A DNA stretch of 48,318 nucleotides from Rhodospirillales bacterium (lineage in GTDB: Bacteria > Pseudomonadota > Alphaproteobacteria > Reyranellales > Reyranellaceae): the NCBI GenBank assembly GCA_947469635.1, contig CANIRG010000003.1:1-48318 (forward strand), read 5' to 3'. Both the position numbers and the translations under genes were made by a program. The notes beneath the pieces were generated by a model. It saw nothing but the letters and a program-made list of their open reading frames with translations, made no database searches and was not told where the DNA came from. Below, one piece after another: positions 9,475 to 20,314 of the stretch (within the stretch, counting starts at the first letter, position 1; every line of letters starts with the position of its first letter).

Positions 9475-9587
9475 GTCATCCCGAGCGAAGGGCCGCAGGC
9501 CCGCAGTCGAGGGACCAGTTCATATCGGATCGCGGAATATGAGGAGGTCCCTCCGCTCCGAGCCTTCGGCCCTCCGGTCGGGATGAC
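9475..9587. repeat. Head-to-head pair of GTCATCCCGA repeats
   Basis: One unit runs 9475-9523 (GTCATCCCGA ... GAGGGACCAGTTCAT) and its inverted partner 9538-9587 (ATATGAGGAGGTCCCTC ... GGTCGGGATGAC). Together they can fold into a long hairpin. They occupy most of the gap between two divergent genes (9427-9646). The same unit recurs at 18883, 19231-19463 and 20209-20314. Confidence 0.8.
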
Positions 9588-18875: not shown

Positions 18876-18882
18876 CTCCCCC

Positions 18883-18932
18883 GTCATCCCGACCGGAGGG
18901 CCGAAGGCCCGAAGCGGAGGGACCTGTTCATG
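18883..18932 (+). repeat. GTCATCCCGA repeat unit carrying the GIY-YIG start codon
   Basis: A single unit from GTCATCCCGA to GAGGGACCTGTTCATG, with the inner block GGAGGGCCGAAGGCCCGAAG. It begins eight bases after the dehydratase stop. Its final ATG (18930-18932) is the start of the nuclease gene, and its GGAGGGA forms the ribosome binding site. Confidence 0.8.
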
Positions 18933-19217
18933 GAACGCAACCCCGTCGTCTACATTCTCTGCAGCGAGAACAGGCGCGCCCTCTACATAGGGATAACGAC
19001 GAACCTCGGACGACGGCTCGAAGAGCATCGCCAGGGGTTGGTGCATCATACGGCGAGATACAACATCCATCGGCCGATCTACGTCGAATCCTACGAGACA
19101 GCGCCCGACGCGATTGCGCGAGAGAAGCAGCTCAAGAATTGGCGACGGGAGAAGAAGCTCATCCTGATCAACCGATCCAATCCTGAATGGCGTGATCTGA
19201 GTGGCGACGTATTTTGA
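18930..19217 (+). CDS. GIY-YIG nuclease-domain protein
   Basis: Small single-domain GIY-YIG protein of 95 residues, the usual length for the UPF0213-like bacterial group. The two catalytic tyrosine motifs appear as VYILCSENRRALYIGIT, followed by the arginine in TNLGRRLEEHRQG. The later glutamate and basic helix are AIAREKQLKNWRREKKLILI. Members are predicted to nick DNA, but most have no known role. Repeat units of one family lie at both ends of the gene: one overlaps its start, and another begins 13 bases after its stop. It lies between the dehydratase and RraA genes and is unlikely to share their function. Confidence 0.9.
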   Translation: MERNPVVYILCSENRRALYIGITTNLGRRLEEHRQGLVHHTARYNIHRPIYVESYETAPDAIAREKQLKNWRREKKLILINRSNPEWRDLSGDVF

Positions 19218-19230
19218 CCAAACCGCGGAC

Positions 19231-19463
19231 CATGAGCAGGTCCCTCCACTCCGGGCCTTCGGCCCTCCGGTCGGGATGACGGGTAGACTGTTTTACCGTC
19301 ATCCCGAGCGGAGCGAAGCGAAGCCGAGGGACCTGTTCATGCAACTGGCAGAACATGAGCAGGTCCCTCTGCCCCGAACCTTCAGCCGTCCGGTCGAGAT
19401 GACGGGTAGACCGTTTGACCGTCATCCCGAGCGGAGCAATGCGCAGTCGAGGGACCTATTCAG
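19231..19463. repeat. Array of four alternating GTCATCCCGA repeat units
   Basis: Units alternate in direction: inverted 19231-19280, forward 19298-19341, inverted 19354-19403, forward 19421-19463. Outer sequences are conserved (GTCATCCCGA and GAGGGACCTGTTCATG), while inner sequence is of two kinds, a GGGCCTTCGGCCC core or a GCGGAGCGAAGCGAAG type. They fill the gap between the GIY-YIG gene and the RraA gene (19218-19489). Confidence 0.85.
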
Positions 19464-19489
19464 ATGGTCGTGATGACGAGGGGAATGAA

Positions 19490-20208: not shown

Positions 20209-20314
20209 GTCATCCCGAGCGGAGCAAAGTGAAGTCGAGGGACCTGTTCATGCAAGTCGCAGAACACGAATAGGTCCCTCCGCTCCGGGCCTTCGGCCCT
20301 CCGGTCGGGATGAC
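20209..20314. repeat. Head-to-head GTCATCCCGA repeat pair after rraA-like gene
   Basis: Forward unit 20209-20252 and inverted unit 20265-20314, separated by 12 bases, form a long imperfect hairpin between two convergent genes. It may act as a bidirectional terminator, but no T tract is present. Confidence 0.8.

Follow-up and report, generated by a model that had tools for sequence, protein, structure and literature searches.

A GIY-YIG gene between inverted repeat units

The window, by which we mean the whole 48,318-nucleotide stretch of DNA that was analyzed, carries a GIY-YIG nuclease gene on its forward strand (18930..19217), an open reading frame for a single-domain protein of 95 residues that matches the Pfam profile PF01541 with 59.3 bits, at a cut-off of 22.6. 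The gene lies between two inverted copies of a short hairpin unit. The upstream copy (18881..18932, forward strand; strict unit 18883-18924, GTCATCCCGACCG...GAGGGACC) has its CCGTCAT tag outermost and ends in the tail GGGACCTGTTCATG, inside which the start codon is found. Since an SD-like GGAGG at 18916-18920 within this unit stands 9 nt ahead of the ATG at 18930, the unit and its tail supply both the SD-like site and the start codon of the nuclease. The stop codon occupies 19215-19217 and the inverted repeat I1 resumes at 19225, in the downstream unit (19225..19283, reverse strand; strict unit 19239-19280) that closes the gene-bearing element. Across the gene, I1 extends over 59 nt with 92% complementarity.

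The downstream unit is followed by three more. Two of them form a gene-less dimer, with one arm at 19298..19333 on the forward strand and a degenerate second arm, seen in the letters, at about 19362..19403 on the reverse strand; the third is a single forward-strand unit ahead of an RraA-like gene (19421..19456). Two further gene-less dimers lie at 20209..20244 (forward) with 20273..20314 (reverse), and at 9475..9516 (forward) with 9546..9587 (reverse). All of these except the degenerate arm match the strict unit pattern, which gave eight matches in the window and none in 100 dinucleotide shuffles. The layout agrees with the earlier note on this DNA, which had described a nuclease gene started from within a repeat element and, 13 bases behind its stop codon, another unit with three more after it. 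The nine units of that note are also there, eight strict and one degenerate, though in three clusters rather than at its four loci.

Window-type units occur in 26 exact copies in the own genome, mostly as inverted pairs, and the reversed pattern does not occur in it. Within the group at 18.9-20.3 kb, gene-bearing pairs and gene-less ones have inner ends that match over about 15 bases (GAGGGACCTGTTCATG on the left, GAGGGACCTGCTCATG on the right), so that a gene-less pair looks like the gene-bearing element minus its gene. Elsewhere in this genome (L013, L014, L028 and L029, on contigs C12 and C557), some dimers resemble one another in their spacers and have additional inverted flanks (around GCTATCGCATNTGA), which suggests that the mobile unit may exceed the hairpins in length. 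A CCTC-tagged family is more numerous there than the window family, with 111 exact copies.

PF01541 identifies four genes in the own genome. Three stand between inverted units, each with a family of its own: CCGTCATCCCGACCG..., CCTCATCCTGAGGAGC...GTCTCGAAGGATGG, and GTCRTCCTGAGCG...GAAGGAYCTCAT or a worn form of the last. The fourth, not between units, is UvrC, as named by its sequence. On contig C55, a copy of the upstream unit followed by only the first codons of the gene (GATGAACGACGAGCCCGG; L001:1850-1925) represents a truncated copy of the element, which stands after the GIY-YIG gene of that contig and its downstream unit.

Structure of the repeat unit

The hairpin of the unit starts with three base pairs, continues with a tandem G.A and then has a C-G or G-C pair, the two forms covarying. 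This pair beside the tandem G.A is formed in all 24 distinct units at A4 and in 121 of 123 distinct units from the surveyed loci, where 57 would be expected if the two positions were independent. On the opposite strand, T.C would replace G.A. The two strands of a unit are thus not equivalent, which hints that recognition may be of single-stranded DNA. In DNA folding, the dimers were clearly more stable than shuffles (z −6.1 for 19298-19410, −6.7 for the dimer at 20209 and −6.9 for that at 9475); single units folded no better than shuffles with the parameters of the program (z −1.6 to +1.1).

The nuclease

GIY-YIG and an overlapping T5orf172 are the only Pfam domains in the window protein, and a search against NCBIfam returned no family above cut-off. 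The protein has the hallmarks of the GIY-YIG superfamily, namely the GIY and YIG motifs, the central arginine and the C-terminal glutamate. Across 42 aligned enzyme sequences, Y8, Y19, G21, H33 and E65 are invariant, as is N84 within an NPxW motif, and R29 is nearly so. N84 might correspond to the C-terminal Asn of the UvrC lineage, a residue not expected in Slx1-like stand-alone enzymes. The AlphaFold model (pLDDT 88.7) had Slx1 (6seh) as its best match in VIA-align, with a Z-score of 8.0, which is a modest value, followed by UPF0213 (1zg2, 7.6), I-TevI (5.7) and UvrC (5.3); Foldseek placed 1zg2 first. With its 95 residues, minimal single domain and nearest folds in Slx1 and UPF0213, the enzyme is a small Slx1-like stand-alone GIY-YIG nuclease by its predicted fold.

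Against three close homologues, dN/dS of the window gene was 0.08-0.10, with dS above 1, and over all close homologue pairs it ranged from 0.02 to 0.10. The enzyme is therefore kept by purifying selection.

Repeat units beside GIY-YIG genes across bacteria

Matches to the window protein are distributed patchily, in 45 of 61 genomes searched. For a survey of their surroundings, we combined 94 matches from this 61-genome set with 80 named loci, the best 80 of at least 535 relatives. After four repeated genes and the pieces of two broken genes had been merged out, 167 genes with usable flanks were left; 317 other genes from the same loci served as controls. As a hairpin-energy filter proved too strict for the units because of their G.A pairs, it was replaced in the unit finder by a pairing rule that tolerates G.A. 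The resulting scan overlooks units that are visible in the letters (e.g. at L133, L153, L167 and L194, and likewise L053), and in the 94-match set the downstream search started at the stop codon and thus overlooks units read through by the open reading frame, so that the unit counts are low estimates.

In the combined scan, inverted units were found on both sides of 119 of the 167 GIY-YIG genes, on one side of 22 and on neither side of 26, as compared to 1, 33 and 283 of the 317 controls. An inverted repeat across the gene with a score of at least 40 was present in 107 of the 167 and in none of the controls; before the removal of repeats, the two sets had given 52/94 and 45/79 genes, against 0/172 and 0/133 controls. 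A motif scan for correctly oriented unit pairs, in which the two sides were not compared with each other, recovered such pairs at 76 of 151 genes outside the c55 type, at 1 of 324 controls and in 0 of 865 shuffles. The tail of the upstream unit points towards the gene in 93 cases and the opposite way in 28. Direct repeats across the gene were also frequent (25/94 and 34/79), because whole dimers often flank GIY-YIG genes, and are less diagnostic. The suggestion of the earlier note, that a GIY-YIG enzyme plays here the part that the RAYT transposase plays for REP sequences, thus gains support from the contrast of 119/167 to 1/317, and most of the surveyed orthologues do have flanking repeats.

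Genes with units on both sides come from about a dozen phyla: Pseudomonadota, Bacteroidota, Bacillota, Actinomycetota, Fibrobacterota, Chloroflexota, Thermomicrobiota, Acidobacteriota, Rhodothermota, Verrucomicrobiota, Omnitrophota and Uhrbacteria. Many of the records are MAGs; isolates are represented by Reyranella, Roseibium, Bradyrhizobium and Azospirillum. From 32 records of a plasmid collection, 12 loci were read. Six of them, from Neisseria, Azospirillum, Aeromonas, Novosphingobium, Sphingobium and Shinella, had an inverted repeat with a score of at least 40, and four others (two from Sinorhizobium, one each from Planktothrix and Spirosoma) scored 34-36; the loci of Rhizobium tumorigenes and Photobacterium had no inverted repeat across the GIY-YIG gene. 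On plasmid p1 of Planktothrix agardhii (L234), the GIY-YIG gene and GTCATTCTGAG repeats are located between genes annotated as MmeI and as the DISARM helicase drmA.

Unit type and enzyme phylogeny

We labelled each unit by its tag and the first three bases of its stem and mapped the labels onto the protein tree, which is built from 98 columns, has many open forks and carries no unit label for 66 of its 166 rows. Among 61 genes of relatives, the unit type changes 7 times on the tree, as compared to a mean of 31 and a minimum of 25 for shuffled labels; for all 100 labelled genes, the corresponding values are 24, 57.5 and 50. Within genomes that have several of the genes, the similarity of the units rises with that of the enzymes (72 pairs from 21 genomes, Spearman correlation 0.58, 2 of 2000 permutations as high; 0.50 and 12 of 2000 before removal of repeated genes). 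Unit type thus follows the enzyme tree, and enzyme clade and unit family match.

Copy number and the matching enzyme

The comparisons of copy number treat genomes as independent samples, uncorrected for phylogeny. Eight genomes of the genus have a GIY-YIG gene between strict window-type units, and these contain 22-238 window-type copies, whereas the other 29 contain 0-21, the two highest of them (21 and 18) being genomes without such a gene. These 29 comprise 14 that have the gene with other or worn units (0-10 copies) and 15 that have no such gene (0-21 copies). In G009, the gene is accompanied by one worn GTCATCCCGAGCG unit of the window type and the number of strict copies is zero.

For c55-type repeats, the median was 68 copies (4-271) in 13 genomes with a near-full-length gene and 13 (0-91) in 22 genomes without one (Mann-Whitney p 0.0004). 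In 17 of these 22, in which no c55 gene was detected, c55-type repeats nevertheless occur, with up to 91 copies; the five genomes with no c55-type repeat also have no c55 gene. For GTCGTCTCGACCG, we had noted beforehand that the repeat should be abundant where it flanks a gene. Five of seven genomes agreed (15-53 copies) and two, G011 with 1 copy and G019 with 5, did not; G029 (58) and G005 (26) were high though unpredicted. Overall, copy number of this repeat was associated with a flanked gene (p 0.002).

Genomes rich in a repeat thus tend to have the matching enzyme. The earlier note had named abundant repeats in genomes without the gene as a sign against such a tie; this pattern is largely absent for the window type, with 22-238 copies in the eight genomes and 0-21 in the 29, but it is seen for the c55 type, with 91 copies in a genome without a detected gene.

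Presence and absence at orthologous junctions

Between the stop codon of the IlvD-like gene and the start of the RraA-like gene, the window has a gap of 614 bp, in which the surplus DNA consists of the units and the nuclease gene. In relatives, the same gap is 22 bp (G023), 11 bp (G010), 13 bp (G022), 5 bp (G024), 14 bp (G021), 30 bp (G007) and 13 bp (G019) long and contains no unit; in G011 it is 124 bp long, also without a unit. At the remaining orthologous ilvD loci, the next gene is a different one or no RraA-like gene was identified.

A second junction was read at 30 loci. Four species (G035, G025, G008, G031) have a GIY-YIG element there, six genomes (G029, G023, G033, G014, G001, G024) have gene-less dimers of other families, G006 has a worn gene-less dimer and G027 a single unit at the end of a contig; most of the rest have no unit within the first 330 bases. 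Azospirillum lipoferum 4B has the gene, together with two dimers, between sufB and sufC; no element is present there in A. ramasamyi and A. oryzae, whose matched pieces show 97% and 96% identity. Empty sites, which the earlier note had proposed to look for, are thus found at all three junctions. Target duplications, which it had named alongside, were not evident, and no common insertion site emerged.

The ilvD-rraA junction of G023 contains CGTCAATGACG, which resembles two outer tags without their stems. We considered it as an excision footprint and dropped the idea, as counts of CCGTCAN{0,3}TGACGG in the 61 genomes do not track repeat number (4 in G000, 8 in G004, 7 in G006, and 16 each in G011 and G012).

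A probable dedicated nuclease and the alternatives

The location of the gene between inverted copies of a dispersed repeat, together with that of its relatives between their own matching repeats, suggests that the enzyme is probably the mover of a widespread class of repeats. We consider it likely that the GIY-YIG enzyme is the nuclease dedicated to mobilizing or maintaining these repeats. The succession of hairpin unit, GIY-YIG gene and inverted hairpin unit would then be the gene-bearing copy of a short mobile element, and the gene-less inverted pairs would be non-autonomous copies of it, standing to it as REPINs do to RAYT transposases. As for the route, the Slx1-like nuclease would recognize the extruded, single-stranded hairpin, which comprises the tag GTCRT, three base pairs, the tandem G.A, one more pair, a variable hairpin and the tail. 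It would nick at the base of this hairpin, and the unit or dimer might be copied to a new place by repair or by replication starting at the nick. This detailed nick-and-copy route we offer tentatively, as it may well prove wrong in its steps.

Alternatively, a free-standing GIY-YIG homing endonuclease could target pre-existing repeat dimers and insert into their spacer, the repeats being independent of the gene. GIY-YIG is a classic homing fold, the gene does occupy the position of a dimer spacer, its surroundings agree with the inner ends of gene-less dimers, and some genomes have repeats without the gene. We think this explanation unlikely, as repeat-rich genomes combine tens to hundreds of potential targets with few genes, window-type repeats hardly occur outside genomes that have a matching enzyme, and some genes, as in A. 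lipoferum, have a whole dimer on each side instead of lying within a single one. Unit type also co-diverges with the enzyme, although the same could be true of a homing site. A host function, in which a domesticated nuclease is retained to trim or repair the hairpins of repeats that spread by other means, appears quite improbable to us: the patchy distribution of the genes (45/61 genomes), their presence or absence at the same junction and their co-occurrence with matching repeats speak against it, even though strong purifying selection (dN/dS 0.02-0.10) and a predicted fold nearest to the structure-specific nuclease Slx1 would suit it. That the gene is a passenger with no functional tie, trapped between repeats by recombination, is hardly credible in view of units on both sides of 119/167 genes and 1/317 controls, in many phyla and with clade-specific types, despite the many settings in which GIY-YIG domains occur according to PMC1564403.

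Relation to known systems

With the repeats and the nuclease taken together, the best reading, by analogy, is that of a system resembling REP/RAYT with an unrelated, Slx1-like nuclease. REP/RAYT systems and REPINs, described in part in PMC3733652, share with the window system the short hairpin units, mostly in inverted pairs, the many gene-less and few gene-bearing copies, the gene between inverted units and the match between enzyme and repeat families. They differ in having an HUH tyrosine transposase in place of a GIY-YIG enzyme and a GTAG tag in place of GTCRT/CGTC (CCGTCAT in the window). Lacking both the HUH enzyme and the GTAG tag, the window system is not itself a member of REP/RAYT, though it would act like one. 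If our reading is right, a second, unrelated nuclease joins a strategy of REP maintenance known for HUH enzymes.

A connection also exists to the CGTC-tagged REP superfamily (Di Nocera et al. 2013, PMC3733652), which includes dRS3 of Neisseria and, according to that article, apparently has no dedicated transposase. Its members are described there by a CGTC, TGTC or CCTC tag, a hairpin, an arrangement mostly as head-to-head (HH) dimers and a foremost occurrence in alphaproteobacteria. The article treats transposase genes, and the string 'GIY' does not occur in it. Window-type units have the tag CCGTCAT, with TGTC and CCTC in other families, and they are dispersed (26 exact copies), mostly as head-to-head dimers. 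In contrast, the stem of 8-9 bp starting with a complementary AT, the loop of 4-5 and the tail CCA of the superfamily are not found in the window unit, which sets the AT of its tag against AC of its tail, has a tandem G.A after three pairs, ends in the tail ACCTG and has a longer stem-loop. The window-type repeats thus belong to the superfamily or border on it.

Units of the canonical CGTC type stand beside other genes of the window enzyme's family, for instance CGTCATCCCCGCGAAGGCGGGGATCCAG at A. lipoferum and L101, and GIY-YIG genes adjoin such units in several groups named in PMC3733652, namely Azospirillum lipoferum, Neisseria, Bradyrhizobium and, with a weaker inverted repeat, Sinorhizobium meliloti. 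In a class-wide count made by hand, with genomes again taken as independent, 121 of 385 genomes had a strong GIY-YIG hit (E ≤1e-15), of which 44 were among the 63 genomes with a canonical CGTC unit and 77 among the 322 without. With at least 10 canonical units, 11 of 12 genomes had a strong hit, the exception being G390, which has 49 copies and no GIY-YIG hit. On the wider proposal, that the Slx1-like branch of GIY-YIG nucleases supplies the dedicated mobilizing enzymes for the whole CGTC-type superfamily across bacteria, we judge the balance to be even. These elements would then rank among the short mobile elements with the widest distribution in bacteria, and their enzymes would act on one strand of hairpins with stacked G.A by a chemistry other than that of HUH, DDE and serine or tyrosine recombinase enzymes. 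With a named family of enzymes, each clade having its own repeats, the mover of these repeats would become testable at the bench.

As a single domain of about 95 residues, with Slx1 and UPF0213 as the nearest solved structures, the enzyme resembles the stand-alone Slx1-like GIY-YIG proteins (UPF0213). In the portion of the 2006 GIY-YIG survey that treats them (Dunin-Horkawicz et al. 2006, PMC1564403), stand-alone bacterial GIY-YIG proteins are described as Slx1-like, predicted roles in repair are cited, and descent is given as mostly vertical with exceptions, the mobility of the domain being noted; this treatment does not tie them to palindromic repeats. The survey also poses the question of whether molecular parasites exist among other members of the superfamily, on which our reading would bear if true. 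GIY-YIG homing endonucleases and Penelope-like elements are likewise mobile and driven by a GIY-YIG nuclease; the window element, in contrast, lacks a DNA-binding extension, an intron and a reverse transcriptase, and its gene-less copies are many. Among the matches listed from the open-licence PMC literature, no title or abstract opening joined GIY-YIG with REP, RAYT or dRS3, which falls short of proof that no such article exists; a term search does not find 'GIY' in PMC12306157, PMC6006769 and PMC5082802.

Divergent GIY-YIG genes

Two relatives, L107 and L120, have divergent GIY-YIG genes without units near a tRNA-Ser gene (identified by ARAGORN) and may form a separate, non-mobile branch. 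At L103, in G046, a c55-like GIY-YIG gene has no units and is directly followed by a reading frame that may be the start of a DnaE-type polymerase. In the 61-genome set, G005 had 10 GIY-YIG matches, including fragments, from several clades, and is a candidate for recent spread of these genes.
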